From Xestospongia muta (Eukaryota > Porifera > Demospongiae > Haplosclerida > Petrosiidae), in assembly GCA_963693285.1 (NCBI GenBank), contig OY848920.1, positions 2,431,135 through 2,495,134 of the forward strand: a stretch of DNA of 64,000 bases, given 5' to 3'. Positions 25,965 through 62,689 of this stretch are shown here, piece after piece. The position numbers and the translations under genes were made by a program. Each line of letters begins with the position of its first letter. Position 1 is the first letter of the stretch. The notes below the pieces were generated by a model, which did no database searches, was not told the DNA's origin, and was given only the letters and a program-made list of their open reading frames with translations.

Positions 25965-26192
25965 TTATTCAATATTAAATTCAAAATTAACACTCAGTTT
26001 TCTTTTTATATTAGCAGTCAATTCTTGAGCTATTTTATCAGCATTTTTTTTAAATGGACCACCTTGTCAAGATAAAATACATAAAAACAATTTACAAAGA
26101 TCCACTAATTCCTGACAATCACTACTAAACTCCATACCTGATATAAATTCGCTAATCACTTTTGGCAACAGCACATTCATGATCCATTTTGG
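25965..26192 (-). pseudogene. Decayed C-terminal helical domain exon of gene A
   Basis: Homologous to the last exon of gene B (32958-32537). It keeps CQELVDLCKLFLCIL, a QGGPFKK-like phrase and the ending NFEFNIE, but about half of the domain is deleted, the upstream join is out of frame, and an in-frame TGA sits just before the QGGP turn. Gene A as spliced therefore stops early, at 26152-26154 in a different frame. Confidence 0.75.
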
Positions 26193-29100
26193 CTATAGTA
26201 AATGGTCATACTATGATCATGTACCATTGTCTTGCTTACCTTTTACAATTTGTGGTGTATTATATAGATAAAAGGATATCTCAACATAAAATTTGTCATC
26301 CAATAAAACAGGAATTGAGTAATAGAAAAAGTCTTCTGTATCAAGTTGTTGTTTAGCATGTACAACTACTGTACATGATGAAAGCTCAGACTGTCCACTA
26401 CTTCCAAATTTGTCAATGTCCTTACGGTAAAGCTAATGAAAAAAGTATGTAAGTTACATATAATTATGATTCTTTGTGCAGTAATAGAGATGCTATAATC
26501 ATCAATCTCCTAGTATGTATGGACTTCTGACATTTGTGCATTTTATTCCTTACCCTTGTGGGATCAATTAGAGGATTGATTTTCCATCCATGTGGAGTTT
26601 TCTTGCTATGCTTTTTAAAGTCAAACTCAACATAGCTTTGTGATGAAAGTTTTAGGTCTAGTTTAAGAATTTCAAAGGCATTAGGATGCTCCTTTCTTAT
26701 ATACTGCATGAAATATATACATAATAAATAAGCTGGTGTACATAATAGTTATGCATTTACCTCTGAAAGGACCTCCAGATCTTTAACAACTGTAAACATA
26801 ACTTTCCATAACGAAATAGCTTCCTTCTCACGGTAAACTTTACAGAAATATACCATATTAACATGTGCATTTGATTTTTTAAAAACAGCTAAAATTAAAC
26901 CACAAAGTTGAATTAAGACAAAAAAACTTTTAATACCATTTTCAGGTGATGACAATGTATTGTGAGTCCTTGAGTATGGCTTAGGATAAAGTTCATCTTG
27001 TTCAGATTCTGGTTGTGTAAATAAAATATAGTATATGATAAATTTTTTGGGCTTGTATTACATTTCTTTAATTAATAGTTTTAAGCTGAGATATGTTTTA
27101 CTTAGCTATTGTTACAGTATTAATTCATTCCTCACCCTCTTGTGTCTTAGCAAGTTGATGTTTTTCTTTTTCCACTCCCTGCCCTCCTTGGTGTCGATTG
27201 CTCTGAAATTATTCTCCTACTTCATTGCCTTTATTGTTGTCTCTTTTACTCACATTTTGAATTCCACTTTCTTCATGTCCTTTTCTACCTCCTTCTTCTT
27301 GTCCTGCAAAAGCTCCTTCTTCCTCCAAATCTTCTTCTACATTTTTTCCTTGTCCCAATCCTCCATTTTGTCCTTCTCCATTCTCTCCTAGTTCCTCACC
27401 TCCATTTTGAACTTTTCCATTCTCTTCCTGTCCCTTTCCATTTCCACCCAATAAAACACCAATTAAAGAAAACTGAGTGCATGAAATGGAGCCAAATTGA
27501 CTTTTTGGAGTAAAATGACCTCCTAGAAGAAGTTCAAACTGATAAGGAAGTCCCTCATTATTGAGTGTTGCTCTCACAAACTGAAGAGAATTACATTGTT
27601 CTGGTGTCTCAAGTGCTACACAATGTTGTATATTGACAGTGAGTGGTTTTAGTAGTGATTTGGAAATGGTAATGGCATAAATAGCACTAACAAGCTCACT
27701 GCCTTTAGGGAATTCAAAATCACCTCCAGCAAGAGCTGTGATAGCCACTTTACAAGTCTCTGATGAAGATACTATTTCCTCTGGTGCCGCCAATGTCAAA
27801 CCATATCTCTCCCAGGTAAACATTTGAGGCTGACTACTCCCTTGGAGTAGACAAATAGTGTTTCCAGCTCGAATGACACTTCTGAGGTTATCTACAAAAA
27901 ATTACACACAGACCATCACACAAAAGCCGTACCTTCATTTTTGTACAGATACGTTGACAGGTCTTCTGTGTTTTTCTGTCTTATTTCTATAGAAATATTG
28001 CATATATCATTAAATAATGATAGAAGACCAATTTTCAAATAAAAACTAATTAATATATTTAAAAGCGAATAACATGTTTTACCTTCTAACTTTTGCTTTA
28101 ACATGTCTATTTCTTTATCTTTATCACTTAGTTGTAAAGTAAATGTCCTCTGTACTCTCTCTATTTCTGACATTAACTCCTTCTCAATTTCTAAATATAT
28201 TACTTAATTTAAACCAGTACATGTAAACCTTTATTAATGACTTACCTTTTTTTCTCTTTAGGAGATCTGTTAACTGCTCTATCTGCACAACCATTGCTCT
28301 GTTTTCTTTAGAATTTTTGTCAAACAACTGTAAAATTTAATAGTCTCTGACATTAGTATTTGTCCACTTACACTTGGTTTGTGATCATCTGCATGTATAA
28401 TACTGTAATAAGGACTATCGTCTTCTGTATATCTTCTTGTTCTACATGTAGCGTCTACCAACTGTGAAATTTATTAGATTTTGACGTAATTTATTTTACA
28501 CTTACACTTTCTTTATCATCAACTATAATACTGTAATAATGATTTTCTATTTTAGCTGTTCCATATGTTGACGTCAAGTATGTAGAAGTAGTTGAAGTAG
28601 GATTAGAGGAGCATGGATGGTCAGTAGTACAAGAGTCATCAACTCTCTCATAATCAGCACTAACTTCATAAATAATGTTATCTAAATGGTCTAGTGTGAA
28701 ACATAAGAGTATAAATATTTATGGTCATTAGTGAAAGTCACATACCACTAGTTGGTGATACAGCAGTTGAAGACTTAGAGGAAAATATGGATGAGACATT
28801 AGGTATATTTGAGCCATTAACTTGTGTAGCAGAAGATGTTGAGGAGAGAGAGGATTTGTTTCTTATAGGTGAGGTAAGAGAACTTCTGAAAAGGTCCAAG
28901 TCATACACCAATTCATTCCTATTGAAAAGAGAATTATTGTTAATATATTATTGTACTTGTGTTATTAATAACATTAAAAGTTGTTGACAAAATTGTTGAC
29001 AAAATTGTTGACACATGCTATAAATATATCCATTCATGTTATTAAGAAAAATTGATACATCAGTCTATACAAAAACATGAAAGGTTTATGAATAGAATAT

Positions 29101-31316
29101 ATATAACAAGATTAAAAATGTACATTTCTAATATGAAACACTTGCTGACTAGCAAACTTATAGAACAATCTGTATCACTATATAAATTAATAGAACCAGT
29201 ATATGATTATACTAATGTATTGTTAGATGAACTATTAAACAGTCTTCTAATAGTACTTTACAAATGAAAACAATACTTTCAGTTTGTATTAAATAATTTG
29301 GTACACCAATGCAGCCTATATTAAATAATTTGGTACACCAATGCAGCCTATATAACCATATGTTGATTGAAACAAATAATCAATTTTCAGTAATTAAACA
29401 AATATTTGTAAATATCCTTCCTCCTCCCTTACACATATCTTATCATGATGCTAAATTATAAAAGATGATACTACGACTATTACATATACTTAATTATAGG
29501 GGTACAACCAAAGTGTATATTTCAAAGATCAGATATGTAAGATCTTGTATACCTAATCATTTAATATCAATACTATTAACCTACAAAATTTTTGGCAATC
29601 TATATCCTATACGTACATCACTGTAAATATATATTACTTGGTTGATTTAACCAATATAAATTGTACAGGTTACATGTTAGTGACTAGTTGCCACGTGGGT
29701 GCTTGTTGCCTCGCAAGATGGGGGTTGGCAACGGTTGCCATGAAGCGATGATGTAAAGCATATAATTGCATGCTCTAAATTGTACAGGTTGCATGTAGCA
29801 ACGTTATTATGATAAAAAAGTAAACAAAACACTGTTTTGATTACTAATGTATCATTGTATATATAGCTAGATTAATAATAATATATTAGCAATGAAAACA
29901 ATGTTATGTTTAGTTTCTTACATACTAAGTCCACCTGTATAATTATATCAACTATATTTCTTCAGTTTTTTTTATAAATGTTTATAAATATTTGTTAATT
30001 TGCCAAATTTTAGCCTTCTAAGCAAAATTGTGCTAGTAATTTATAAATTAAACCCACTATAGAGTGAGTATATTGCACACAGAAATATGTCATTAAGACA
30101 ATGCAGATGTAATAAAGGACGTTTATACCAGTGTGTGCACAAGTACAACAAATCTATTTTAAAATTAGTGTTTTACAATAACATGAGAGATATGTAGCAC
30201 TTACTCTAAATCAGGATGTCCATTAAACGCTTCCTTCAGCTCTCCTATTTGTTGCTGATCTAGTTTTCTTCCTTTACAATGTGCTGCTTGAACTTCATTG
30301 ACTTTTATCTCTATCAGATGATGACTAAATATATCACGTGCCTTTTCTATACCAAGAACCTTCACAGCCTGGGTAATGGCTTCATTTCTTTGTAAAGTAG
30401 GCCAAATGTCACTCCATTCTGTGGAAAACTGTTGAACATTTTCTTTTACCACATGTTTGAAAGTGTTTGTAGCACGATCAATCATAACTTCTGAATAAGT
30501 AGGTAAAAGACATATAGGAGAGCTCTTAATAAAACTCTTTTTTTTGTTTAAGCTAACAACTTGGAAAAAACAATCATTGATATTAACATCTTCATTTGCT
30601 GATGTCTGTACGAATGGAAATGTTTTTTTGGGAATAATTGTGGCTGCAAAGTTGGCTCCTAGTTGTATTCGACCATCATCAGCTTCGTCACATTTAGTAC
30701 AGGCAAGTATTACTATAATTTTAGCTTTGACAAGTTCTTGAAGGAGTTTAGAGAGGAAATCAACTTGAAGCCTAATGTCTTCTCCTCGTAACGTAGGATC
30801 AAACAAACATATAAAGCCGGTTACTCCTTTCCCTTCACTGAACTCATTATTGGGAAATAACTGGGTTGTTTGGGAAGACACCAACTCTTTATATTTTGAT
30901 GAAGTAGGTATGGTATATTCCTCTTCATTGTGTACTTTATATGCTGCTTTACCTCTGGAGATAAAGTGTGTAGAACAAGCTCTTGTAATATAATCTTCTT
31001 CAGCAGGGAAAGATGCATTCTCATAGTTTGCATTGTAAAACTCGGTTTGTTCTACAATATGAAATCTAGCTGTATCACCATCTGGTAATTTCTTTGTGAT
31101 AGCTCCCCAGTACAAGAAGTGATCTTTATTATAGACTGAATTACGTCGCCATTCCTTTTCACTGAGGAAAGAGTTGTGATGCATAGAATATGTGTCAGAC
31201 GAAACGAAACGATTGCAGAAACAGCTTTTGCCAACACCTTTTCTTTCTTTAATATTTCCTGTTAATTGACTTCGAGGACAACCGACCACAACTATTTGAT
31301 ACGCTTTGACTGCCAT
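26152..31316 (-). CDS. Gene A: p190-type GTPase, FF, tyrosine-motif, ZU5, UPA-like scaffold (C-terminus lost)
   Basis: Thirteen exons read in one frame of 1009 codons: 31316-30205, 28918-28746, 28690-28506, 28461-28372, 28327-28246, 28190-28083, 27986-27933, 27891-27250, 27008-26937, 26888-26761, 26703-26554, 26432-26240, 26192-26152. Residues 1-265 match the N-terminal GTPase of p190RhoGAP: GVGKSCFCNRFVSS, NKDHFLYWG, FHIVEQTEFY in place of the G3 DxxG, ACTKCDEA, QTSA. An FF-like domain follows (~290-345, FSTEWSDIWPTL). Exons 3 and 4 carry HYYSII and PYYSII. Exons 5-7 are coiled coil. Exon 8 is ZU5 (WERYGLTLAAPEEI, HCVALETPEQC, GGHFTPKSQFGSIS) with a Gly/Glu-rich tail. Exons 10-12 are a UPA-like region. 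The exon 8 donor is chosen only because it keeps frame. Likely a cytosolic scaffold; role unknown. Confidence 0.8.
28919..30204. other. Long first intron of gene A, with short tandem repeats
   Basis: This 1.3-kb intron separates the GTPase/FF exon from the Ser-rich exon. It contains a 13-base tandem (TTGTTGACAAAA-like, about 28979-29012) and a 32-base unit repeated twice (ATTAAATAATTTGGTACACC and on, about 29289-29352). The plus-strand frames at 28721-28987 and 29052-29267 are not supported; the first overlaps exon 2 of gene A. Confidence 0.6.
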
Positions 31317-32536: not shown

Positions 32537-35500
32537 TTATTCAATATTAAATTCCAAATTCACACATAACTCTTTTTCTATATTGGTAGTCCATTCTTGA
32601 GCTAATTTATCAGCAGCTCTTTTAAATGGACCACCTTGTTGAGCTAAAATGTATAAAAATAATTTACAATATTCCACCAATTCCTGACATTCACTAATAA
32701 AGTCCATGCCTAATGTAAATTCACTCATAACTTTTGCTACATTTGGTTCATTTTTGGTGTTTTGTGACACTAAATCATTAGAAAACATATCCGTAGCAAT
32801 TTCATGTAAACGCTCATTCAACAAAGTTTCTAATTTCGAGTAGTAGTTTTTAAGGACATCCTGTATCACTTTCTTAACTTTATCAACTTCTTCAACTCTA
32901 TCACTATTTATCATTTGATCGACTTTGAAAATAGCAACACCTTTGTGACACCCTTTGGCTATTATAGTAAATGGATAACACTATACATAATGTGTTGTTA
33001 TTATTTCACTTACTTTTTGCAATTTGTTGTGTATTATATAGATAAAAGGATGTCTCAACATAAGGTATGTCATCCAATAAAACAGGAACTGAGTAGCAAA
33101 AGAACCTTTCTGTATTAGATTGTTGTTTATCTCGTACAACTACTGGACATGATGAAGGCTCAGACAATTTACTCTTTCCAAATTTGTCAATGAACTCACG
33201 GTAAAGCTAATAAAACAATATATGTAAGCTAGATGTAATCATAGTTCTGTTCAGAAACAGAGTTTCTATAATCATGTATTGCCTTGTGTTCAGACATTTG
33301 TATCTTTTAACCATTGTAGTATATTCCTTACCCTAGTTGTATCAATTAGAGGATTGATTTCCCATCCACAAGGGGTTTTCTTGCTATGCTTTTTAAAGTC
33401 AAACTCAACATAGCTTTGTGAAGAGAGTTTTAGGTCCAGTCTAAGAATTTCAAAGGCATTAGGTTTCTCCTTTCTTATATACTGTATGAAATAACACATA
33501 TAATAAACTAATTAGTGTACATAATAATCATGTATGTACCTCTGAAAGGACATCCAGATCTTTAACAACTGTAAACATAAGTTTCCATGATGAAATAGCT
33601 TCCTTTTCACGATAAACTTTACAGAAGTATAGCATATCAACTTGTGCATTTGATCTTTTATAAACATCTAAAATTATCCATGAAAAATTAAGACAAAAAA
33701 ATTTAAATACCTCTTTCGTCATGTCTTTCTCCATCCCCAGTATTTCCTCCTCCTACTTCTTGTCCTCCTCCTCCATTTTCTCCTTCTTCATTCTCTGCTT
33801 GTCCCCCTCCTCCATTTTGTCCTTCACCATTCTCTTCCTGTTCTTTTCCATTTCCACCCAATAAAACAGCAATTAAAGAAAACTGAGTGCATGAAATGGA
33901 GCCATATTGACTTTTTGGAGTAAAACAACCTCCTGGAAGAAGTTCAAACTGATAAGGAAGTCCCCCATTATTGAGTGTTGCTCTCACAAACTGAAGAGAG
34001 TTACATTGTTCTGGTGTCTCCAGTGCTACACAATGTTGTATATTGATAGTGAGTGGTTTTAGTAGTGATTTGGAAATGGAAATTGCATAAACAGCACTGA
34101 CAAGCTCACTGCCTTTAGGAAATTCAAAATTACCTCCAGCAAGAGCTGTGATAACCACTTTACAAGTCTCTGATGAATGTAATATTTCTGCTGGTGTACA
34201 CAATGACAAGCCATATCTCTCCCAGGTGAAAAAGTGAGGCTGACTACTCTCTTCAAGGATAAAAAATGTATCTCCAGCTTCAATGACACCTCTGAGGTTA
34301 TCTACAATGAAAATTATTGAGGTATAACTTTACATGCACTATCATAAATGTTTACCTTCTTTTTTATACATGTATGTTGACAGGTCTTCTGTCTTTCTCT
34401 GTCTTATTTCTATAAAATATTAGGATTATAGTTAAAATTGAAGGCCAATTCAACTAAAAGACTAATTAATACACTTAAAGTGGTGATTACTAACTTATTT
34501 ACCTTCTAACTTCTGCTTTAACTTGTCTATCTCTTTGTCTTTATCACTTAGTTGTAAAGTAAATGTCTTCTGTGCTCTCTCAATTTCTGACATTAACTCC
34601 TTCTCAATTTCTATATATATTACTTAATATAAACCATTATATGTAAATGTTTATTAATGACTTACCTTCTTTTCTCTTGAGGAGATCTGTTAACTGTTCT
34701 ATCTGCACATCCATTGCTCTCTTTTCTTTAGAATTTGCATTTAACAACTGTGAAATTTATTAGTCTCTGATATTAGTGTTTTCATACTTACATTTTCAGC
34801 ACGTATAACACTATAATAAGAATTTTCTTCTTCAGTGTATGTTCCTGTTCTACATGTTGCTGCATCTAACGACTATGAAATTTATTAGTCTCTGAATAAG
34901 TAGTTCTTTTCACTTACACTTGATTCATGATCATCATTATGTATAATACTGTAATATGGATTTTCTTCATCAGAATATGTTCCTGTTGTACTTGTTTCAT
35001 CTACCCACTTAGAAATTTATAAGACTATGTCATAATGTTTTTACACTTACACTTGCTTTTTCATCAACTAAAACATGGTAATAAGGATTTTCACTTTCGG
35101 TGCACTTTGTTGTTCTATATGATGTCAAGTATGGAGAAATAGTTGAAGAAGGACTGGAGGAGAAGGGGTTGTCAGTAGTGCAACTATGCTTTTCCTGAAG
35201 AGTATTGTAAACAACTAATGTTTGATTATCTTTATCCAATGAGTCGTCTCTTTTGTGATAGTCAACATTTACTTCAAAATCAGTGTTATCTAAATGATCT
35301 GATATAAAAACATTAAAGAATATAAAGATTTGAGTTCATTGGTGAAATTCGCATACCATTGGTTGGTGATGGAGTGGATAAAGACTTAGATGATGTATTA
35401 GGTGTATTCGAGCCATTAAATTGTGTAGGTGATATTAGGGAATCAGATAGAGAAGATCTGCTTCTCATAGATGAGGTAAGAGGACTTGTAAAGAAGTTGA

Positions 35501-37019
35501 AGTCATGCACAAAATCGTTCCTATTACAAAAAAAATAGAATAATATATATATAAATTGGCACTTATGTTATATATATATATTACATCAAAGGTTGTTGAG
35601 AAATTACATAAAACCATTGACCTTTGGATATATAAATCTTCATACATGTTATTAAGAAACATCCTTAAATGCCAAATATTAAACTGCCAAACACCATATT
35701 GGAAGCAATTTATAAATTTTAACCAAATTAAGACCACTACACAGTATATTGCAGCAAAAAATATGTTTGTTAAGAAAACTCAGATGTCATACAAAGGATG
35801 TTTACTTAATACTTTCCCACACAAGTACAACTTAACACAACTATATTTGCTCATACAGTTTATTTAGTTAGAGTTTTACAATAACATGATAAATATGCAG
35901 CACCAACCCTAAATCAGGATGTCCATTAAATGCTTCCTTCAGCTCCACTATTTGTTGCTGATCTATTTTTCGAGTTTTAGGATGTCCTGCTTGAACTTCA
36001 TTGACTTTGATCTCTATCAGACGTTCACTAAATATACCATGTGCCTTTTCTAAGCCAAGAATTTCTACAGCTTGAGTAATTGCTTCATTTCTTTGTAAAG
36101 TAGGCCAAATGTCACTCCATTCTGTGGAAAACTGTTGAACATTTTCTTTTACCACATGTTTCAAAGTGTTTGTAGCACGATCCACTATAACTTCTGAACA
36201 AGTAGGTAACAGACATGTAGGAGAGATCTTGACAAAACTCTTTTTTTTGTTTAAGCTAACAACATGGAAAAAACAATCATTGATATTGACATCTTCTTTT
36301 GCTGATGTCTGTACGAATGGAAGTGATTTTTTTGGAATAATTGTGGCTGCAAAGTTGGCTCCTAGTTGTATTCGACCATCCTCAGCTTCGTCACATTTAG
36401 TACAGGCAAGTATTACTATATTTTTAGCTTTGACAAGTTCTTGAAGGAGTTTAGAGAGGAAATCAACTTGAAGCCTAATGTCTTCTCCTCGTAACGTAGG
36501 ATCAAACAAACATATAAAGCCGGTTACTCCTTTCCCTTCACTGAACTCATTATTGGGAAATAACTGGGTTGCTTGGGAAGACACCAACTCTTTATATTTT
36601 GGTGAAGTAGGTATGGCATATTCCTCTTCATTGTGTACTTTATATGCTGCTTTACCTCTGGAGATAAAGTGTGTAGAACAAGCTCTTGAAATATAATCTT
36701 CTTCAGCAGGGAAACATGCATTATCATAGTTTGCATTATAAAACTCGGTTTGTTCTACAATATGAAATCTAGCTGTATCACCATCTGGTAATTTCTTTGT
36801 GATAGCTCCCCAGTACAGGAAGTGATCTTCATTATAGACTGAATTACGTCTCCATTCCTTTTCACTGAGGAAAGAATTGTGATGCATAGAATATGTGTCA
36901 GACGAAACGAAACGATTGCAGAAACAGCTTTTGCCAACACCTTTTCTTTCTTTAATATTTCCTGTTAATTGACTTCGAGGACAACCGACCACAACTATTT
37001 GATGCGCTTTGACTGCCAT
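32537..37019 (-). CDS. Gene B: full-length GTPase-FF-tyrosine-ZU5-UPA-helical scaffold
   Basis: Thirteen exons join in a single frame of 1140 codons: 37019-35908, 35520-35357, 35298-35051, 35007-34918, 34872-34792, 34747-34666, 34610-34503, 34409-34356, 34301-33711, 33667-33540, 33481-33332, 33206-33014, 32958-32537. Residues 1-265 are a p190RhoGAP-type GTPase (P-loop GVGKSCFCNRF, NEDHFLYWG, VEQTEF in place of DxxG, TKCDEA, QTSA). An FF domain follows (~290-345). A Ser-rich stretch follows, then exons 3-5, each with a tyrosine motif (PYYHVL, PYYSII, SYYSVI). Exons 6-8 form a coiled coil. Exon 9 is ZU5 (~646-785, FPKGSELVSAVYAISISK, IQHCVALETPEQC) with an acidic Gly tail. Exons 10-12 are UPA-like (KLMFTVVKDLDVLSE, SSCPVVV). 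The last exon is helical with a QGGP turn. I know no described protein with this order. Confidence 0.85.
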
Positions 37020-41028: not shown

Positions 41029-44000
41029 TTACAATTTACATTCAAACTCGATAGTTATATCCAATTTTTCTTTAATGTTAATAGTCCATTTTTTAGCAAC
41101 ACTATTGGCTGCATTTTTGAGTGGACCTCCTTGCTTAGCTAAACTCTGTAAAAATAATTCACAATGTTTTTTTAATTTATGAACATCATCTAGGAAGTTC
41201 ATGCTTGAAGTTACTTCTGTCATCATATCACTGTAAATTAGTTTATCTCTGGTTTCTTTAGTTATTAGACGATAAGCAAACATGTTTGCAGCAACAAATT
41301 TTAGTGAAGGTTTCAACAAATCCTCTAAATCAGGGTCGTTCTCTCTAAGAATATCTTGTATGATTTTTCTAACTTTTTTAACTTTATCACCAGTAAATGC
41401 TGGATCTCTGGAATAAGTATCACTTTCTAATCTAGCTGTAAAAATAAAATGGTATATGAAGATGTTAGTATAATATTGAACTCCTATACTTACATGTAGC
41501 ATGTTTGGTTTTTGGTCTTAAAGTTAAATTGATAAAAATCTCAACACGCTGTTTCACTCCTAATACTGGAACTTTGTAATGGAGTCTCTTTGCTGTGTCA
41601 GTTTCTTCATTTGCATATACATCTACCAAACATGATGGAGGCTCATTATGTTTGTCACTTCCAAACTTTTCAATTGAACTGTGCATCAACTATATAAAAG
41701 ATCGAATATTGCTATAGACAATTCCTTAAGCAACCTATACATTTAATTATTATAATCCATGCATGAAAGTAATCAGCTTATCAGTGATATGTTCTTATAG
41801 TTAACCAATTTTATTATTTCTTACCTCTAGAGGTTGTCTACAAGGCATGATTTCCCAACCTTGAGGAATTTCATGATGATACATCTGGATATCAAACTTA
41901 ACACATTGTTCTCCTGATTGCAGTATTAAATAAAAACTTTGACATTCCTCAAAATGAGGACGACACTTTGTCATATACTGAAGTAATAATATTTACTAAG
42001 TAAACAATATGATATTATTACCTTGTGAAGTGCATCAAGGTTTTTCACAACTGTAAACATAACTTGCCATTCTAATGTAGCTTTTTCCTCAATATAGACT
42101 TTACAAGAACAAAGATCAGCTTCTTCAGTTAGTTTATATATAGTTGCAGCTAAAAATAAATCAATCGTGTTTTTAAATTATTTAGTATTTACCACTTTCT
42201 GATGCATTAATTTTTAAGTCATTTATTTGTGATGGTCTGTGTTGAACTTCATCATTCCCTTGTCCTTCTACTTCCTGATCTTTTTCCTTCTTTTTTTCTC
42301 CTACTTCACTTACTATATTTTAGGTATACCATACCTTGCACATAAACTATATATACCTTCATTTTCATATGTACATGTTGCACAGTCTTTCATCTTCTGG
42401 CTCAATTCTATGGAAATCTTAAATTTTACTACTGGGTATATATGAATATGAAGATGTATAAAAACTTATTTATGTAAAGTTGTTTAACGTTCTCAAATTA
42501 ATACACAAAAGTGAAAGATATTTTCTAAGTAAATGTAATTACACTAAATTGTGTTTACTTATTAACCTTTTAAGCACAGCTTTAACCTCTCTATTTCTGA
42601 CAATAATCCCTGTTCATTTTCTGAATATATAAATTTAATATAAATCATTACATTGTTTTTTAACAACATACCTTCTTTTCTCTTGACAAGATCTGTCAAC
42701 TGTTCTATCTTAGCAAGCATTTCACTGTTTCTTTTAGGACCTGAATCTATTAATTCAAGCTAAGATGCACTATGAAATGATTAGCCTCTGATGTAAGTCT
42801 TTTATACTTACATATAATTCTTCAGCAGGTATACTGTCATAAGGATCCTCAAACTCACTTTCAGTAGTTTCTTTATATGTTGTCTGGTATGGAGTAATAG
42901 TTGGAGGACTAGAGGAGTAGATAATATCAGTAGTGTAACTATCTTTTTCTTGAAGAGAAATAAAAGAAACTGATTTCTGACTGAGTTGATCATCAATATT
43001 TTCATAGTATCCGTTACTTTCAAAATTAGTGTCATCTAAATGATATAATATAAAGCATCACAGATTAATATACTAAATATATAAAATTATGTCACTATGC
43101 TACATTATGTCTACTTATAAACCTTTTAAGCTCAGTTTTAACTTCTCTATCTCTTTGTCTTTATTCGATAATTCCAATAATAACACCTTTTCATTTTCTA
43201 AGTGTATAACTTAATAAAAAGTATTATACCACCTTTAATAACATACCTTCTTTTCTTTCGAGAAAATGTTTCAACTGATCTATTTCAGCAAGTATTTCAC
43301 TGTTTGTTTTAGCATTTGCATCTAGCAACTCAAACTAAGATATACTATGAAATTTATTTTTGTAAATTTGTTTTAATTTACTTCAAGCTCATCAGCAGGT
43401 ATACTGTGATAAGGATCCTCAACATCACTATCACTAGACACTGTTTTCATATATGTTGGATCCTCACTTTCAGTAGACACTATTTTGATGTAAGTTGTCT
43501 CGTATGGATTAATAGGTGAAGGACTAGAGAATATCAGAATTGTGACTATTTTACTCTTGAGCAGAAATGAAAGCAACTGACTTTTGACTAAATTCATCAT
43601 CAATATCGTCATAGTAATCATCAGTTTCAAAGTTAGTACCATCTAAATGGTACAATAAAGGCATCTCATATAATCATAATAATTATATTGGACTCACTAG
43701 GTCTTTCTATATCATCATCGCTTGTATCACTTGGTATTTCTGAGGCATTAAATGGAAAATCAATTTTATCTAAGTATTCCATTGAAGGTGATAGTGGAAG
43801 CTGCACTTTGTCAGTAACATTACAACTAGCGATGGTTGCATAGCCATCTATCGAAGGTTGATTCAATGAAAAAGATGTTTCACCTGTTGGTAAGCAAGGA
43901 AGGCTACGTGTACTTTTATTTGGGGTCAGAGGAGGTGAACCTATTGTTCTAGTGGTTGGTAATGGATTAGGTAGAAAAATAGACGAGGAATTAAGTGCAC

Positions 44001-44877
44001 TTGTGCCATCATATGGAATATTAACATAAGTTGTTTGAGCATCAGATAGACAGTATTCACTATTCACAGGTGAGCTAAAAGGACTTGTAAAAGATTCAAT
44101 GTTGTTCCTAATAAAATAGACAATAATGAGTGAAATAAAATATAGAATAAAATAGAATAAAAATATAGGTGATGTGTTTGTTTTGTTATTAATGATAAAT
44201 TAATAGTTAGGAGTTGATGACATTTAAGTCACTGGCCACATTTTAAATTTATATGCTTTAATTATTTACTGGCAAATTCCTCATATTTACTATCACATAT
44301 ACTATTAATGTAAGCTAATGTATATTATTTAATTATACAGAGAGAAACAAAGTCAAAGTTCTACACACCTATAAGGTTATATGGAAGGAGAAAACTTATC
44401 TACATAGCAATTATACCACACAATACACAATTTATCTTTTACATATAAATTCATATTTAAAATATTCAACTCGCATACCAAACATTCTTAGTCCAAACAA
44501 GAATTAAGGAATGTTAATTAAGTGACAACTTTATCGGCTTCTTTACTACTCTAATATCTACATACTCACCCTGAGTCAGAAGGTTGTCTATAATCCAAAT
44601 TTCTCATTTGTTGATGATCTAATTTTCGAGTTTTATAATGTGGATGTGCTTCTCGCACTTCATCAGCTTTGATGTCCTTTAAACACTGACAAAACACTTT
44701 ATGCGCTCTCTCTATGCCAATAACCTTTACAAGTTGAGTACAGTCTGGATTTTCTCGTAAAAGAGGCCAAATTTCACTCCATTTTGTAGAAAATTGCTGA
44801 ACGTTACTTTTTATAATGCCATTGAAAGTTTTCATGGCAAAAGTTTCAATTGTTTCATCTTGACCATGAGAAATCAT
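41029..44877 (-). CDS. Gene C: FF-tyrosine-coiled coil-UPA-helical scaffold without GTPase or ZU5
   Basis: Eleven exons give an unbroken 712-codon frame if the decayed block 43642-43124 is skipped: 44877-44570, 44107-43698, 43035-42812, 42759-42672, 42620-42567, 42407-42357, 42312-42193, 42149-42022, 41977-41825, 41689-41494, 41435-41029. It starts at a Met just before the FF domain (FSTKWSEIWPLL, IERAHKVFCQCLKDI), so the GTPase has been lost. A Ser/Pro-rich exon holds TTYVNIPYDG, DGYATIAS and MEYLDKI. The next exon has GYYENIDD and DPYDSIPAEEL. After short coiled-coil exons a charged exon (VGEKKKEKDQEVEG) sits where the other genes have ZU5. UPA-like exons (WQVMFTVVKNL, PPSCLVDV) and the helical end (SLAKQGGPLKNAA) are intact. 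Upstream bases match the flanks of A and B, supporting this start. Confidence 0.75.
43124..43642 (-). pseudogene. Decayed duplicate exon block inside gene C
   Basis: Three exons (43642-43382, about 43329-43247, about 43200-43124) duplicate the next three used exons of gene C. In the first, the homologous frame starts NGTNFETDDYYDDIDDE but has a TAA after ISAQE, then an 8-base deletion; its end, DPYHSIPADELE, is in another frame. The two smaller exons (FELLDANAKTNSEI and NEKVLLLELSNKDKEIEK) remain open. Skipping the block preserves the gene C frame. Confidence 0.7.
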
Positions 44878-44899
44878 GACTTTTAAATAACTGGTAAGA

Positions 44900-47800
44900 A
44901 CTTATACTCGTATTATTATAAGAAATATCAGGCTTACAATTGACGTACCCAACTTACAAAAATGCTACTCCTTTAGTTTTTGTAGAGAGAAATAATCAGG
45001 AAGCGTACCCGTCTACTACGCGCAAAATCTTGAATAGGACCAGACAAAATTATTGACTGGACTAACTGAATTGACCAAGCTTTCAAAATTTTTTGTAGAG
45101 TTTTCAAATAACTTGCGGTAGGCTATCTGCAAGAATAGCACATTTTGCCAGACCATTTGACGCTCGGCATGATCAATGACGTCGCAGAACGAGACGGATA
45201 AAATTATTTGATATTTACATTTGATCCTCGTGTAGATCTGTCAATTTGCCATGATATTCAAAGTTATCATACAATGTAACTTTCTTTATTGGTGCATCAT
45301 ACAAAGTTCTGATTTGTGATCAATTCTATGAACAAAGTATCCTATAATGTTCAACACAAAATGACTAAGTAATTGACTGTCACAATATGGTACAGTTTTA
45401 AAGAATTTTGAGTGTCCTTACATATGTCTATGATTTAGGATTCTGCTTAAAAGTATTGTTAGTAGCCATTATAAAGTAAGTCTGAAGATTGCCTGATGTA
45501 AACAGCCATATTTAACTTGGCAAGTAGTGCTAGTGGTTGTAATCGGCCATCCTATATAAAATTCAGTTATAGAGTCTGGTAAAATGTTATATTCTGGAAA
45601 TAGTAATGTGTATATAATATTATATCTACATATATGCTATTTAAATAATGTGAGGGATGTCACTGTTCATACATGCCATGCATACACTTGTCCTTTTATA
45701 GAACTAATTTAATAAAGTACATAAACTATACAAGTGCCAGTCAGCATATCTTTTATTGATGCATTATGAGTTATTCAATGTCCCAGTATTAATGTTATAA
45801 GTGAATTGAATTGTTCGTGTACTAATTATTATAGAACACTAATAATTAGTACACAAAACAGTTTATTTTATTTGTAACATTAATACTGCTTACATGGAAT
45901 AACTCATAATGCATCATTAAACAATATGCTGACTGGCACTTTACATTTGGGTAGTAAATTGCCAGAGCTATGACATATAAACATAACTGACCATGAAGTG
46001 ATTGTAATCTGTTTAAACAGTGAATTCTTGCTATGTTCTTCCACTTTACTTATTTGTCTAATTGTATTGCTCCTAGCTGTATTAATTGAGTGTCTTCTTT
46101 CAATATAATTCATATTGTTATGTCAAAATGCATAAATGAACTAACACAGTTGATCACATTGAACTAACTGAGCATTTTACTGAACTTAAACATAAAATTT
46201 CATAGAAATTAGTGTTTTTATACTACTATAATTATATATGTAAAAACATTATTCTAGTAAAAAGTCTAATAAACTAATAAACTAATATAATAAATGAATT
46301 TTAAAAATGTTTTCAACTTTGTTGCATGATTACTAACCACTGAGTGGGCGAGCGTTAATTGTGTGCGTTGTAAGGCAGCTTATTTTGAAAGTGCTTTATC
46401 TCTTGACAACAGCGTCTACAGCCCATTAGCCAGAAATACGGAAAACGTCATCTCTATAAATTCGTTCTATATAGTCAGCAACAGGTCTTTAAAGCACAAG
46501 CGATAGGAAGCTTAAGACTTTATTCTTTGTACAAATACTATTTTGGAAATTTTGGTAAAATGTTTCTTTCTGAAGTTATGGCAAATTTTACTAACCTTAA
46601 CAGCTTTATTTATCAACAATTTTATAAGTAGATACATCAGGATATACCTATTGCGATGAGACAGTAAGTGGGCTATAACCAAATTAAGCTTCAGCAAAGC
46701 CACACCCATTATTATTAAACAAATGCCACGCCTTTAGTTCTGTCCTTTGCTATTTGGACATTTTTAATTATAATAAATTGCTATATATGTCATAATAACA
46801 TAATAACATAACAAAGTAGAAGAAACTGTCTATCTAATAATCATTTGATAATACTTTGATTGATAATATCATTGCAATGTCAATTATAAAATGATGTCGA
46901 TTATAAATAAGTATAATAATGCAGTCAAAGGAAAAAAAATATATTGGAATGGTCTTCTTTTGTTCACTATTTGTTCCTATTATATGCCATTAGTTATCTG
47001 TGAACAAAACAAGAATTATTGTTGAGTGTTATGATTATTAAAGTAAACATATTAAGTTCATAATATTTGAGAAAAGAAATAAACAGAATATTGTGTTTTC
47101 TCTAGGATAAAATATGAGACAATCCCTGTTAAAGGACAAAAAATGATAAACAATTATACAACTGCTAAATATCAATACAAAAACAGATAGAATAGGCAAT
47201 TGATGAACTTGTATATAAAAGAAATACCATTTTCAGACTAAACCTGCTTGTTAAGGTATCATTGGGACTATTCAGTGCTATATGTGAATGCTTTAATACG
47301 CAAACATGCTTACATTTCAGTATAGTATAGTCCTCAGTTACAATCAGATAGTTTCCATCTAAAAAAACTGCTGGTACTTATGTACATATAATAATTATAG
47401 ACATGATGAAAAGTCAGAAAAAAGTTCATAATAGAAGATCTAATTTTAACTGATCGATAACTTAGTAGATTCAGATTCACTATAGTAATAACTAATCCTA
47501 TTACTATATACTAAGTTATTATCACTGACTTCTGTTTATTAATATTCAAATAATAGTTAATATTGATATGTCGATAGAACTAGAAGAAAATGAATAGGTA
47601 ACTTTGTTTCCTAAAAACATAAGTTATTCCTCGCTTACTGTATTTAACGAAAGTATGTGTTAATTTGACTTTTCATCTTAATTAGAAGTGAGCAAGTACA
47701 ATTTACAATTAAAGAAATAAATACAAAACTTATTTTCAGCTGAATGGCTGTGTGAAAACATTCAAAAAAGTTTTTAATATTTTAAAATATTAAAAATATA

Positions 47801-48276: not shown

Positions 48277-51200
48277 CTAAATTTCAAAATCTATATTAAT
48301 GTTCAATTTTTCTTTAATGCTAGCAGTCCACTCCTCAGCTATATACCTAGCTGCATCTATATGTGGACCTCCTTGTTTAACTAAACTCTGTAAAAATATC
48401 TCACAACGTTCCACTAACTTCTGGCCATCACGTATAAAGTTCATGCCTGATTTAAATTCTCTTATCAATTCACTAAAATTTTGAGTTTCTTTGGTTGGTT
48501 CAGATATAAGACCATGAGCTAACATATCTGCAGCAACTTGTCTTAGAGAAGCTTTCAATAAATTCTCCAAAGTTGAGTACTGCTCTGTAAGAATATCTTG
48601 TATGATCTTTCGAGCTTCTTTAACTTTATTACCAGTTAACTGTGCATTTTCTGAAATAGCAATCCTTTCACCTTTAACTATGACAAAAAGACGATAAGCA
48701 TATGTGCATATATGAAATCAATAAATAGATCTATATGTAAAAATGTCTCTCACATTTAACAGATTGTGAAACAGTATTTGTTACAGGCCTAAGAGAACGA
48801 ATAAGGCATATCTCATACTGTGGTTCAATTCCTGATACTGAAACTTGATAATTTAGTATCTCTTCTGTATCAGGTTTTTGATCTGCAAACACATCTACCA
48901 AACATGATGGAGGCTGAGGATGATCAGTGCTACCAAATTCATGAATAGAGGTACGGAATAGCTAATTATAAGAAAAAAGGTTTTCAAATTAATAACAAAT
49001 GCAGAAATAGTTATAAACATTTATTATTGCTATACATGTATTTACTAAGAAAGTAAGTATTATTCTATTAAATACTCTGAAGTAAGTACAATATGCAAAA
49101 CATTCAAACTAGAGAACTAATTAAAAGAATGATTGTGTTCAAACAGAACAGCTGAAAACCTTATTTCATGCCACATTGCAAAATAGTACATAAAATTTCT
49201 TAGGCCATAATATAATTTCCATATTAATATGCATTTCATAATAAGGATTTATATAATAACAACTTCCAAATCATCCTAAGACCGTCTTTATCTTATAATA
49301 GTAATTACTTTTAATAGCTATAATAATTACCTTTAATTACCCTCAATAAGTCCTGTGCATGCCTAATATCAAGGTTTGTAAATGAAGGTAAATTACATTC
49401 ATCACTTTTAAAGTCACATGCAAAAATGGACATAATTATATATATATATACCAGCATAATAATCTTAGAATGCCTAAATAAGAAACTTACCATTTGGAAA
49501 AATGATTAATGAAACTTTCTCACCTTTGCAGGCTTTAAATGAGGAAAGACTCTCCACCCTTTAGGAGTTTCTTTTTTGAAGTCAAACTCAACATAATCCT
49601 GTGATAGTTTTATATCATGTAATGTCTGACCTTCCTCAGCACTGGGATGCTTTGATTCCATGTACTAAAATAATTTCATAAAATATTTTATGTACTGACA
49701 CACCATAACATTACTTGTAAAAGTGCATTGAGATGCTTCACAACTGTTAACATCACCTGCCATTGTAACACAGCCTTTATCTCATAGTAAACTTTACAGA
49801 AATAAAGAATGTCAGCCTTTTTAGTTGATTTAGAACAAGCTAAAATGTACATGAAATAGTAATTGAATAATAATAATAATAATATTATACCCTTTGGTGA
49901 AGCAATAATTGTATTATTTAATAGTTTTGACTTTTCATTAGTTTTTTAGTATATAGAATAGAAAATATTATTTAATTCAAATTCAAAACTTACTAAATAC
50001 AGCAGAAGTATTCAGATCCTGTTCACTTTTATCGTTTTGTTCCAATACAATTGCCAACTTATCACTTTCCTGCTTTATTGATTCTGTTTACATTCAAATA
50101 ATAAATGATATATACATGGAGGTAGCTGATACCTTTATTCTCTGAAAGTTGCACACTGCTTTTAATTGGCTTTTGAGCAACATCATCATCTGTTTCACTC
50201 CCTTCGCTGCTAGAAGGGTCTTCATATCCCTGTGAGCTGCTATCCTCCTCATCTGATGAACTATTATCTTCTTCCTCTTCTATCATTATAATTCCAACCT
50301 CACAAAATTGGATGCAAGAAATGAAGCCATATTGGTTTCCAGGGCTAAAATGGCCTCCTTGAAGAACTTTGAACTGATAGGGAAGTGTCACCTCATTAAT
50401 TGGTGCTCTCACAAACTGGAGGCAGTTACATTGTTCTTGTGTCTCTAGTGCTACACAATGTTGTATATTGACAGTGAGTGGTTTTAGTAGTGGTTTGGAA
50501 ACAGAAATAGCATAAACAGCACTTACAAGAACACTTCCTTTAGGGAATTCAAATTGACCTCCAGCAAGAGCAATGATAGACATTTCACATGTATCTGATG
50601 GAGAGAGTATTTCTTCAGGTACAGACAGAGATATTCCATATTTCTCCCAGTTATAAGATTGAGGCTGGCTACACCCTCTAAGTAGAAAAATTGTGTGTCC
50701 AGCTGGAATGACACCTCTGAGGTTATCTACAGTGCATTAGCAGTAAAATGGTATATAATGCCAATACATTAGTGGAACAAACAACGTTTACACAATTGAT
50801 GTAATAAATTTACCTTTCCTTTCAGTAGGAGGATCTTCAATCTTCTTTTGTCTCATTTCTAGATGTATAGAAACATTAACTGAATGTGACCAGATTATTT
50901 ATAGACAGTTTATTAATAAATCCAGTTAGTAGAAACACAAATGACATACAATGTATACCTGCTTATACTAGTTACCTTTTAATCTCTGCTTTAAATCCTC
51001 AATTTGTTTGTCTTTCTCTTTTAATTGTAAGCGTAACTTCAATGTCTCTTGTGATTTTCCTATCTCGTCCTGTTCTTTATCAGACAATGACGATAATCTC
51101 TTTGCAATAACTATGAAAAAATATTGATAGATCATTTCATAATGTTTATATAAACTGCTTTACATCTACCATCATATATAACTGTGCCTTCCATTCATAC

Positions 51201-54200
51201 ATGTATAGGTATGTTGTCCAATCTAATGCTACTTATTTACCTTTTGAGCTCTGTTTTAACTTCTCTATCTCATTGTCTTTATCTAGAGATGCACCATAAA
51301 CATTTCTGCTTGGACCTAGTTCACAAACAAAATCATTACCAGTAAATATAAGTAGTAATAATAATGTGCTCACTTGTACTAAAGAGAGGTTTAGCACATG
51401 AGAAAGCATTTGACCTTCTTCTTAATTTACATTGGTCATCCATCGAGGAATTAGAGCGTATGTTTGGTGACACAACTGGTATCTTTGTTTCATCATAATG
51501 TTCCTTTTGTAAGTAACCCATTGATGGTGATAACCCAATAGTGGTACTACCTGTAGAGATTCCAGAGTCACCACGTGAACGGGTAGATGCATCTGAAGAT
51601 TTTCTTGTTGAAAATGAACTACTATTGAAGATCCCAGAGTCAACACGTAAGCGCTGAGATGTGTTTAAAAGTTGCTTTGTTTGTACAAAATTATTGGCTG
51701 TTGTTAAGGAAGGAGAAATATGATTTGGATAGATTGGTGAAGAAGGTATGTTACTAATAGATGATGGAGTGGGTGGAGATGTTGAAAGAGTAATAGTGGG
51801 AACACTTAAGCCTTCATAAGGTGGAACACATGGTGTGACAAAAGGCCTTGGTGCATCAGATAGAGAGGATTTGTTTTTCACAGATATGTTAGGAGGACTT
51901 GTAAAATTGTTGAAGTCATACACAAAGTTGCTCCTATCAAAAGAGACAATCATATCTAAATTATACTATTCCTAATATAAATACAAATTCTATAGTGCAT
52001 CATTGTAAAATTGGTAGATTTATGCTTGCATTATAAGCATATTATTAGTTGTTGAGTGCTGAGATAATATAAGAAACAAAACAGCCGATTATAGCAGTCA
52101 TAAATGCTAACTTGTAATTTGTTTTACATTATCGATTTAAAATTCGCTTGTATGTAAATATCTTGAGTAAAGTGATCATTAGTATCACAAAGATCTCTTA
52201 AGTCACATATAAAAATTGTAAGTATATATACAATATAGATATTATGAACGCTTTATGCATACATATAATTTGGCAATTTGACAATTTTAAAAAAAATTGA
52301 ACCCTGATAAATATTCCTTTTAGTGATATTATTAATGATTATTACCAGACAAATTTAAACCAATTATAAAAATTTTAAAAGCAGTTTACTAAATTTTGTT
52401 GTAAACATCGAAGTTAAGTGTGTCTTAAAAGTTTGATCAAAACGTTTTCTAACAATTTTTGAGAACAGACAGATATAGTATTCCTGACTGTTCATAAAGA
52501 AAAACTGAATAATAAATATAGAGCCTTCACAATAACATTGCAGCTACACTACTTACGGAATCATGTCAGGATGTGTCTTAATTGCTTCAATAAACTCAAC
52601 TTGAACGTTTTTCATTTGTTGTTCATCATCCATTGGGGAATCAGAAAGCATTTTTGTTGACACGACTGGTACATTTGTTTCATCATAATGTTCATTTTGT
52701 GAGTAATCCATTGAAGATGATAAATGTAGTTGCTGGTTGTAAGCAGTGTTTCTACTAGTAGAGATTCCAGATTCATCATCATATGAGTGTTTAGATGCAT
52801 TTGAGGGTTTATTTGTTGAAAAAGAACCACTAATAAAAATCCCAGAGTCATCACGTGGGCGCTGAGGTGTAGCTAAAAGTTTATTTGCCTCCAAAAAATT
52901 CTTGGCTGTTGTTAAGGAAGAAGAAGTATGATTCTGGTCGATTGATGAAGAAGACATGCTATCTGTAGGTAAAGAAGTGAGTGGAGATCTTGAGAAATTA
53001 ATAGTGGGCACACTTATGTCTTCATAAGGAGGACTGCATGTTGTAACAATAGGAGTTGGTGAATCAGTTAGAGAGGATTTCTTTTTTACAGTAGTTATAG
53101 GGGGACTTGTAACATCGCTCAAGTAATACGCACAATCGTTCCTATGAAGAGACAACCATGTAGAATAAATTATACTATTCATAATATAATTATAAATTAA
53201 AATTTTTAGGTTTGTACTTCCATTTTAAGAATACATCATTAAGTAGCTGAGTGCTGAAATATTACAAGAAACCAAGCAGCTGACTACAGCAGTTATATAA
53301 GCTAATTTGTAGTTTTGTTATATGTTAATTATTCTGAATTGACTTGTATGTATATATCATGTGTAAACTGATCATTAGTATCGTATACATGCCTTAAATA
53401 ATGGCTATCTTTTATAAAACTTCAATTTTAGCAGTAGATATACAATATAACATGGACATTTGATACGTGAGGCTTATAATTTGGCAATTAATAAATTTGT
53501 TAAATTGAACAAATATATAATAATAATAATGTTAATATTCTTAATATTAATGATTATAATTAATCAGAATTAATTAAATTGCCAAATTAAACACATCAAT
53601 CACCATTTACATAATCATTCATTAAATTTTATCCTCGTTAACATGTCAGTAAAGAGAAAAAAAAATTACAAATGCTCTCTTTGTTTTTTGACTATGCCCA
53701 CAAATCACTTTAAATATTACATCATCCTGTTAACTTGACATGCTAATTAGTAATGAATTTGTTTCTTATTTTATTTTTCTAAATTCAGTCTTGTTTCTCT
53801 GTTGATTTTCCATCAATATTAAGTGTGTCTTAAAACTATAATATAATATGTATAATTGAGAACAGACAGTGGTATTCATATCAATTCATTAAGAAAATCT
53901 GAACAATAATCATGGAGTCTTTACAATACCATTACATATAACTTACCCTATTATGTCAGGATGTTCATTAGTTTGTTCTTCAGTCAGTACACCTTGAATG
54001 TTTCTTATTTGTTGTTCATCATTCATTGAGGAATCATCAGGCATTTTGGAGAAAACAACTACTCTTTCTGTACTACCTTTTTTTTCAGTTGTAGCATTTC
54101 TGATGTCACCATCCTGAACTGGTACATCAGTATTGTGTGAACGACCTATTAAAGATGATAAGCGTCGCTTCTGCCAGTCAGTAATGCTACTACTCGATAA

Positions 54201-54998
54201 AATTACAGAGTCGTCACGTGAGCGCATGCCTACGATTGCCGTGGGAGGGTTCTTGGTTCTAGTCTTAGAAGGCTTAACAATTTTGAAAAAAGCTTCTTCA
54301 ATATTGTAATCAAGTAATGCTGATGTCTGTACAAAATAAAGTGGTGTCTTTGAAATAACTGTATCGGCCAAATTAGCTCCCTGTTCTATTTGATCAGAGC
54401 TAGCTTCGTCACACTTTGTACAGGCAAGTATCACTTTACGCTTAGTTTTGACAAGTTCTTTGAGGAGTTTAGAAAGAAATTCAACCTGACGCTTAGAGTC
54501 CTCACCTTGTAAGGTAGGATCAAACAAACATATAAAACCAGTTACTCCTTTGTCTCCTTTGAACATTTCATTGGGAAATAATTGAGTTGCTTGAGAAGCA
54601 TTGTCTACATAAGCTATTTTATGCTTTGAGCTAAAGTGAGTAGAACAAGCTCTAGTGACATAGTCATCGTCAGTGAACAATAGATTGTCATCGTCAGCAT
54701 TATAAAACTCGGTTTGTTCTACAATATGAAATCTAGCTCTATCACCATCTGGTAAATTCTTTGTGAAAGCTCCCCAATACAAGAAATGATCTTTATTGTA
54801 AATTGAATTATGTCGCCACTCCGTTTCACTGAGGACAGAGTCGTGACGCACTTGCAAAGAAAATGTATCAGACGAAACGAAACGATTGCAGAAACAGCTT
54901 TTGCCAACTCCTTTTCTTTCTTTGATAGTTCCTGTTAATTCACTACGAGGACAACCGACCACAACTACTTGATACGCTTTGACAGCCATTGTAGTCAA
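48277..54998 (-). CDS. Gene D: GTPase-Ser-rich(DSG)-coiled coil-ZU5-UPA-helical scaffold without FF
   Basis: Twelve exons join in one frame of 1336 codons: 54998-53947, 53141-52557, 51933-51374, 51315-51241, 51110-50976, 50858-50814, 50726-50133, 50083-49994, 49839-49715, 49664-49524, 48961-48754, 48677-48277. Residues ~1-255 are the p190RhoGAP-type GTPase (GVGKSCFCNRFVSS, VEQTEF, ACTKCDEA, QTSA). No FF domain follows. Two large Ser/Thr-rich exons are duplicates of one another, and each repeats an SGI motif in acidic context (DDSGIF and DESGIST; VDSGIF and GDSGIST). Then come coiled-coil exons (LQLKEKDKQIEDLKQ), ZU5 (WEKYGISLSVPEEI, FPKGSVLVSAVYAISVSK, HCVALETQEQC) with a Ser/Glu tail, a UPA-like region (WQVMLTVVKHLNALLQ, PPSCLVDVF) and the helical end (SLVKQGGPHIDAA). 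Other paralogues start at the second Met (54989). Confidence 0.85.
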
Positions 54999-59591: not shown

Positions 59592-60560
59592 TCATAAACA
59601 CCAGTACTTTTCATAAATGTCAGAAGTTATGAGTGATGATTCTGATGAACTATTATTTTCTTCATCTTCTATCATTATAATTCCAACCTCACAAAATTGG
59701 ATGCAAGAAATGGAGCCATATTGGTTTACAGGGCTAAAATGTCCTCCTGGAAGAACTTTGAGCTGATAGGGAAGTGTCACCTCATTAATTGGTGCTCTCA
59801 CAAACTGGAGGCAGTTATACTTCCATTAGGGAATACAAATTCACCTCCAGCAAGAGCAACGATGGCCATTTCACATGTATATATGGTGGAGATGGTATTT
59901 CTTCAAGTACAGACAGAGATATTCCATATTTCTCCCAGTTATAAAATTGAGGCTGACTACATCCTCTGAGGAGAAAAATAGTCTGTCCAGCTGGAATGAC
60001 ACCTCTGAGGTAATCTACAGTACATTAGCAGTAAAATGGTATATAATCCCCATACATTAGTGGAACAAACAACATATACAAAATTAATGTAATAAACATA
60101 CCTTTCCTTTCTGTAGGAGGATCTTCAATCTTTTTTTGTCTCATTTCTAGATGTATTGAACCATTAACTGATTGTGACAAGATTATTTATAGACAGTTTA
60201 TTAATAAATCTAGTTAGTAGAAACACAAATGACATACCATGTATATCTACTAATACTAGATACCTTTCAATCTCTCCTTTAAATCCTTAATTTGTTTGTC
60301 TTTCTCTTTTAATTGTAAGCGTAACTTCAATGTCTCTTGTGATTTTCCTATCTTGTCCTGTTCTTTATCAAGCAATGATGGTAATCTCTCTGCAATAACT
60401 ATAAAAAAATATTGATAAATCATTTTATAAATTTTAATACAAACTGCTTTACATGTACCATCATATATAACTGTGCCTTCCTTTTGAGCTCTATCTGAAG
60501 TCCTCTATCTCATTGTCTTTATCTAGAGATGCACCACAAAGATTTCTGCTTGGATCTGGT
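59592..60560 (-). pseudogene. Chimeric remnant: coiled coil and ZU5 of a gene-D relative joined to a receptor tail end
   Basis: From right to left: pieces of the short coiled-coil exons (about 60560-60490 and 60396-60265), the exon before ZU5 (about 60150-60100) and ZU5 (60013-59660), all closest to gene D. ZU5 has lost about 100 bases in the middle, near 59818-59822. After the acidic stretch the frame runs directly into SSLITSDIYEKY and ends. That ending matches the last part of the receptor tail (SSLITPNVYETI), so a deletion has fused the two gene types. Confidence 0.7.
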
Positions 60561-60569
60561 TCTCAAATA

Positions 60570-61160: not shown

Positions 61161-61169
61161 GTGCCACTG

Positions 61170-61500
61170 TTATATATGATACATCCTTTATCATTGACTG
61201 ATGATAAGGTTCTTTGGTTATATCATAGACTTCATTAATTTATAGAGAGGAATATTTATAACTGGACTAGTATGCATTTATCTTAAGTATAATTGTAATT
61301 CATTTAAAGCAGAACGTTTATAATTTACAGTCAAAGATTATATATATATCTACTTTTTTCTTTGATGTTAATAGTCTATCCTTCAGCTATAGTAATTCTC
61401 AAAAAAATTCCTAAATTTTTTTAAAGTCTTTACACATTATGTAGGAAGCTCATGTCTGAAATTCTTTTATTCATTATGTCCTTTACCTCTGGCTCTTTAG
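61170..61500 (-). pseudogene. Fragments of receptor tail and C-terminal helical domain
   Basis: 61195-61272 matches the receptor tail exon around 56750-56827. 61330-61500 matches the last exon of gene C (ending region and the middle helices), with no open frame. Both are on the minus strand. Confidence 0.55.
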
Positions 61501-62640: not shown

Positions 62641-62689
62641 CAATTTAATTTGCAGAAAGAAACAAAAAAATATTAATACTTAAAAGATT

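Follow-up and report, generated by a model that had tools for sequence, protein, structure and literature searches.

A predicted sponge gene joining a p190-type GTPase-FF1 head to a ZU5 and CARD-like tail within a tandem array

Can a p190RhoGAP-type GTPase-FF module be carried by a ZU5-containing protein? The question is raised by a 64,000-nucleotide stretch of the Xestospongia muta genome (contig OY848920.1, positions 2,431,135 to 2,495,134; the window), in which a preliminary description made from the sequence had proposed a minus-strand gene, here called gene B, of 13 exons and 1140 codons, with such a module followed by tyrosine-motif exons, a ZU5, a UPA-like and a helical domain, and without a RhoGAP domain. 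We followed up this proposal with profile, structure and homologue searches; genome searches used a 158-Mb, 28-contig assembly in which the window is C4:2431135-2495134. The observation was confirmed, and its interpretation was partly supported.

The gene B model and its p190-type head

Gene B comprises 13 exons of 54-1112 bases, running from 37019 to 32537 on the minus strand (Table 1). All 12 introns are GT...AG with compatible phases, and the spliced frame extends over 1140 codons to a TAA stop; splice sites, phases and frame thus agree with the proposed model. Tandem units repeat the exon order, and other loci repeat that of the tail, which places the architecture beyond chance; an artefact of chance was ruled out by the recurrence in other units. 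On this model the 13 exons would make one mRNA.

The head was recognised by several profiles. The exon 1 product matched the N-terminal GTPase of human p190RhoGAP-A in the Protein Data Bank (PDB; 6d4g, E = 3.8e-30; 3c5h, E = 4.2e-29) and Ras in Pfam (E = 2.1e-7, above the cut-off). The Pfam RhoGAP-FF1 profile (PF16512) matched gene B below the cut-off (E = 6.9e-5) and scored above it in the paralogous unit A (E = 5.5e-7) and in unit C (E = 7.2e-8). These matches bear out the p190-type GTPase and FF1 of the preliminary description; the Pfam scan of the spliced product at E <= 1, which found neither RhoGAP nor the pG1/pG2 pseudoGTPase region, agrees with its statement that RhoGAP is lacking. No second FF match was found by Pfam in the spliced product; p190RhoGAP has four FF domains after its GTPase. 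The p190 N-terminal GTPase is reportedly a pseudoGTPase, going by the title of a 2018 paper by Stiegler and Boggon.

Searching with the first 508 residues (E <= 0.001) revealed 77 head homologues of 323-579 aa, 76 of them no longer than 465 aa. GKSC was present in 67 and [TVA]K[CNTH]D in 72, and in 64 the last H[PT]D, the motif that closes exon 1 of gene B, lay within 16 residues of the end. Most of these proteins look like single-exon frames and so do not reveal what lies downstream. The nearest head in the database was P0016, 92% identical to that of gene B.

Linker and ZU5-CARD-like tail

Exons 3-5 of gene B carry NPYY, NPYY and NSYY, each followed by Yxx[ILVM], as the tyrosine-motif exons described earlier should. 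Relatives of exons 3-5 were found in unit A, and of exon 3 in units C and G. Judged by their motifs, these sites could serve for PTB or SH2 docking. A Pfam match to AAA_23 (aa 509-633, E = 9.4e-4, below the cut-off) overlies the linker and the coiled-coil-looking exons and was set aside; a scan of NCBIfam gave nothing useful.

ZU5 was not listed in the Pfam scan of the spliced product, and gene B alone gave values below the cut-off (E = 0.23 and 0.12). Pfam listed ZU5 at E <= 1 in nine of 15 family members (best E = 1.5e-4), and the predicted fold of the exon 9 domain is that of ZU5. Together these results uphold the proposed ZU5 domain, and by its model gene B has a ZU5 fold. A PDB profile search with the ZU5 alignment gave no match; PIDD was absent from the fold matches listed for the model, which is not informative. 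The UPA-like domain had no profile support. Exons 10-12 are conserved across the family, but no UPA match was found by Pfam (nine members scanned), and a PDB search returned two matches, both unrelated and with E >= 0.25; UPA identity for these exons was therefore set aside and the name is kept as a position label.

By profile, the domain encoded by exon 13 is CARD-like: its alignment matched sponge CARDs with an hhalign probability of 82, and none of 60 shuffles reached the score of this match. A PDB search with the same alignment gave seven matches, all to unrelated proteins (best E = 0.0099). The tail had been likened to those of UNC5, PIDD and ankyrin-type proteins; the ZU5 part of this likeness stood, whereas the end appears CARD-like and not of Death type. 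Because exon 13 is CARD-like by profile, the tail order appears to resemble NLRP1/CARD8 (ZU5...CARD) more than UNC5/ankyrin (ZU5...Death).

A tandem array within a large tail family

Gene B lies in an array of units on one strand, namely A, B, C, D, fragments, F, G and H, of which B is intact (13 of 13 exons). Its exon order is most fully repeated in A, and also in D and H. The heads are swapped between units: GTPase plus FF in A; FF alone in G, where ZU5 was not found; GTPase alone in H, a close copy of D; and in F (L044:3454-4815, minus) a Death-domain exon (E = 9.2e-10) that replaces the GTPase 5' of ZU5. Exon 13 of unit A is cut down and has an in-frame stop (window 25968-26162), and this unit probably has no CARD-like domain.

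Synonymous divergence (dS) between A and B was 0.043 in the GTPase, 0.22 in FF and 0.46 in exon 2. In alignment columns 41-80 the head of P0016 agreed with D at 39 of 40 positions and with B at 27 of 38; after column 80, B and A were closer than D (the window sequences compared were 54255-54989 for D and 35910-37019 for B). The closeness of A and B in the GTPase and this mosaic suggest recombination or gene conversion among the units. In another assembly, a ZU5 protein (P0013) and four heads (P0018, P0033, P0035 and P0037) each lay on a contig of 1,428,945 bases, the heads being 81% and 62-63% identical to that of B; if contigs of equal size are one and the same, heads and ZU5 are probably linked there also.

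Analysis of the whole genome revealed that the tail is far more widespread than the head. The ZU5 exon (exon 9) had at least 150 matches (all 150 scored of 390 candidates; weakest E = 9.8e-21) and exon 13 also at least 150 (all 150 scored of 323 candidates; weakest E = 4.4e-9), while the Pfam ZU5 profile gave 61 matches among 150 scored of 182 candidates. The order of exon 7/8, ZU5 and exons 10-13 was repeated at other loci. We examined 6-kb flanks of eight tail loci for frames of at least 70 codons, and pieces from four were scanned with Pfam. A Death domain stood beside three of the four (L049, E = 3.5e-7; L053, E = 2e-8; L050, E = 2.7e-5); L053 also has Kelch-like sequence by eye, and L052 has a caspase-domain frame (E = 7.7e-8) that may belong to a neighbouring gene. 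Long frames that open with an exon-13-like domain were found as well; of four loci picked for such frames, three were scanned, and in all three the frame ends in ankyrin repeats (L057, L058 and L059). Passages of one study describe Death-like plus ankyrin proteins for Amphimedon (PMC8195603). Gene B is thus a member of an array whose tandem units carry interchangeable heads, and this array belongs in turn to a very large family with the ZU5 tail. Of the claim that its architecture is undescribed, the combination stood as unreported in the literature searched; gene B is an array and family member and not a lone architecture.

Heads of this type also occur outside the array. The exon 1 query matched eight places in the genome, all on C4. 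The exon at C4:87807 is 76% identical to exon 1 of gene B in the GTPase and 62% in FF, and residues 1-381, 476-679 and 716-1258 of a database protein of 1267 aa, P0001, align at this locus in genomic pieces separated by gaps. P0001 comes from a contig of only 3902 bases and is therefore transcript-like. Its Pfam scan gave Ras and, below the cut-off, FF1 (E = 0.0011), and neither RhoGAP nor ZU5; its later part has other tyrosine motifs, for example EEYVNI and DAYLPM. At the join it reads HPDL-TND, compared with HPDL-GND across exons 1 and 2 of gene B, which supports the exon 1-2 splice in a homologue, not in gene B itself. From the C4:87807 gene and the absence of RhoGAP and ZU5 matches in P0001, p190-type heads appear to exist apart from RhoGAP in sponges. 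A more divergent p190-type GTPase exon (28% identity to B) lies upstream at C4:82003 (L047:378-1529) and is followed by a proline-rich frame of 965 codons (L047:2551-5448) with many tyrosine motifs; this may be another type of gene with such a head but lacking ZU5.

When Mytilus p190 (P0002) was searched against the genome, six of its seven matches were head-type exons and the seventh, weak and interrupted by a stop, was to the RhoGAP part; canonical p190RhoGAP was not seen with this query. The pG1/pG2 profile (PF19518) gave no match in the genome, and its controls were silent too. Canonical p190RhoGAP has been reported for A. queenslandica, in the section of PMC5593906 consulted.

Table 1. 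Features of gene B and of the neighbouring array units, in window coordinates
Feature	Position	Strand	Content	Remark
Exon 1	35908..37019	-	p190-type GTPase (~aa 1-268) and FF1 (~aa 269-370)	donor GTTGGT
Exon 2	35357..35520	-	Ser-rich linker	exon 1-exon 2 join like P0001 (HPDL/xND)
Exon 3	35051..35298	-	linker, NPYY motif near its end	
Exon 4	34918..35007	-	NPYY motif exon	54.5% identity with exon 5 over 22 residues
Exon 5	34792..34872	-	NSYY motif exon	
Exon 6	34666..34747	-	coiled-coil-looking	coiled coil by eye only
Exon 7	34503..34610	-	coiled-coil-looking; found 5' of ZU5 elsewhere in genome	coiled coil by eye only
Exon 8	34356..34409	-		order exon 7/8-ZU5 repeated at other loci
Exon 9	33711..34301	-	ZU5 (model residues 1-150) and Gly/Glu-rich low-complexity end	
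Exon 10	33540..33667	-	conserved tail, UPA position	
Exon 11	33332..33481	-	conserved tail, UPA position	
Exon 12	33014..33206	-	conserved tail, UPA position	
Exon 13	32537..32958	-	CARD-like domain (by profile)	stop TAA at 32537-32539
Unit A	25968..31316	-	exon order of gene B	exon-13 match to query residues 76-140 only, in-frame stop
Unit C	41044..44901	-	FF1-only head; relatives of exons 2, 3, 6, 7 and 10-13	ZU5 not found
Unit D	48280..54989	-	GTPase without FF; relatives of exons 2 and 7, ZU5, exons 10-13	
Further unit fragments	59673..63254	-	broken ZU5 pieces; exon 12-13 piece with internal stop	

Competing readings, known systems and neighbouring features

The reading that we favour, and hold to be somewhat probable, is that gene B encodes one cytosolic scaffold of shuffled origin, with a p190-type head, a phosphotyrosine linker and a ZU5/CARD-like tail. 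A number of results weigh against it. The exon joins of gene B are read from genomic sequence alone, and a protein search with the full-length product found 12 proteins, none covering both head and ZU5. The exon 1 donor is non-consensus (GTTGGT, compared with GTAAGT in A, D, H and the C4:87807 gene), and read-through of this weak site would give a head-only product of 383 aa. In the P-loop the first Gly is replaced by Glu (by eye), so that nucleotide binding by the head is not assured. For exon 13, the AlphaFold model from four sequences was all-helical, as expected from the C-terminal helical domain of the preliminary description, but of low confidence (mean pLDDT 51), for which reason no fold search was performed on it; the Death-domain comparison used three sequences and is a weak control; and Pfam scans of 19 members gave CARD in one (E = 0.02), Bcl-2 in one (E = 0.0043) and ZW10_C2 in three (best E = 0.026). 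Between A and B, the overall dN/dS was 0.57, with values of 0.74 for ZU5 and 1.56 for exon 12; taken with the broken exon 13 of A, this indicates that part of the array may be decaying.

The weak donor and the protein search also fit two adjacent genes duplicated as a block, with a head-only GTPase-FF gene of 383 codons, or ending within the linker, beside a separate ZU5-CARD-like gene. Exon 1 has its own start and meets a stop 13 codons beyond its donor, and with eight places in the genome matching the head but at least 150 matching ZU5, tails commonly occur without this head. However, the exon 1-exon 2 join is conserved and present in P0001, all 12 introns are phase-compatible with a single frame, and the exon order is repeated in A, D and H; C and G retain FF and linker exons while their other pieces were not found, as would be the case for shuffled exons of a single gene. 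We consider two genes improbable. A real fusion without a settled function, in an array that tandem duplication and exon shuffling produced recently and that is now largely decaying, would account for the dN/dS of A and B, the broken exon 13 in A, the ZU5 domains not found in C and G, and the fragments at 59.7-63.3 kb. We regard this as unlikely, given that all 13 exons of B are intact and that related heads lie on the 1,428,945-base contig of the other assembly; exon 1 of B against the stand-alone gene also gave a dN/dS of 0.27, a value that may mostly reflect the other gene. The tail could further be a true self-cutting FIIND (ZU5-UPA), with the head as an NLRP1/CARD8-type N-terminal fragment whose removal frees UPA-CARD. 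Phe-Ser is present in gene B, and the candidate position, placed by eye, reads QFS; PIDD-type autoproteolysis sites have an HFS motif. No UPA match was found, the residue before Phe is Gln, Glu, Lys or Asp in 12 of 14 sequences and not His (by eye), and His precedes Phe only in L039 and L041, with Cys after Phe (by eye). Self-cutting thus seems doubtful.

The sequence establishes the open frame, the domain homologies, the array, the exchange of heads and the tail family. For the single scaffold, we propose that exon shuffling took the head from a free-standing GTPase-FF gene like that at C4:87807, and that the linker and coiled-coil-looking exons would join it to the ZU5/conserved-module/CARD-like tail of a large sponge adaptor family. 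By analogy with what has been described for p190, the head may bind guanine nucleotide, hydrolysing little or none of it, and so serve as a stable surface for interactions. The NPxY/YxxPhi exons, if phosphorylated on tyrosine, could recruit PTB/SH2 proteins, and the ZU5 region might restrain the CARD-like domain until head or linker is engaged, an analogy taken from part of the literature on FIIND proteins (PMC11760013); once free, the CARD-like domain could recruit CARD partners or caspases. If expressed as modelled, gene B would place a p190-type GTPase-FF head outside RhoGAP proteins, wired to a death-fold-like adaptor, and the ZU5-to-CARD-like order would be hugely expanded in an early-branching animal; sponges would then allow a direct test of how the ZU5-CARD (NLRP1/CARD8) arrangement and the modular build of p190 arose. 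A bolder and rather unlikely idea is that of a large immune-like sensor family with ZU5-CARD-like tails and exchangeable heads, one clade of which took the RhoGAP-free p190 GTPase-FF as a nucleotide-loaded, tyrosine-phosphorylated sensor gating CARD/caspase signalling. An early-branching animal would then possess a relative of the inflammasome that is FIIND-like and gated by a GTPase, and that ties Rho/tyrosine-kinase signalling to cell death.

Compared with p190RhoGAP (ARHGAP35/ARHGAP5), gene B has GTPase-FF1 homology (30% over 351 columns with Mytilus P0002), the GKSC, DHFLYWG, VEQTEF, TKCDE and TSA motifs in common with 6d4g, and tyrosine motifs downstream of the head; it differs in lacking matches to further FF, pG1/pG2 and RhoGAP domains, with a ZU5-CARD-like tail in their place. 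From NLRP1 and CARD8 it differs in its unlike head, in low identity where the sequences align (13% and 9%), in a UPA position without a profile match and in that autoproteolysis residues were not recognised. Unlike ankyrin and UNC5 it has no ankyrin repeats or receptor part, and unlike these and PIDD its end is CARD-like by profile, not Death. A. queenslandica LOC109582741 (P0014) shares ZU5 and the next module (33% over 66% of the query) but has a Kelch head, and the exon-13 profile found no match in its C-terminal piece. Death-like expansions in sponges and other invertebrates, as covered in passages of PMC8195603, are similarly large and lineage-specific, with death-fold adaptors and variable partners; AIG GTPases in an oyster are mentioned in the text consulted, but a ZU5 protein with a p190-type GTPase is not. 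Multidomain Death-like expansions of sponges and TRADD-N fused to FIIND and UPA-ZU5 in animals are published there, and excerpts of two other papers describe ZU5 with NACHT in early animals (PMC12909245, PMC8260672); shuffling of ZU5 and death-fold domains in early animals was thus already known from all three. A p190-type GTPase combined with ZU5 appeared in no title or abstract found in the open-licence literature. What appears to be new is the exact combination; the domains themselves, and expansion of this kind, were known already.

Other features were identified in the window. A plus-strand retrotransposon at 10870-12890 has reverse transcriptase, RNase H and integrase zinc-binding domains, in a Gypsy-like order. 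Three plus-strand gene copies that look alike by eye lie at ~2210-2849, 6738-7377 and 15773-16469, and the one that was checked contained RCC1 repeats (Pfam). A weak Death-domain match (E = 0.0014, below the cut-off) was seen in a neighbouring frame on the plus strand at 20197-20700. Adjoining the array, a receptor-like gene on the minus strand (56618-59082) has an Ig domain in one checked frame and, by eye, a hydrophobic stretch and C-terminal tyrosine motifs.

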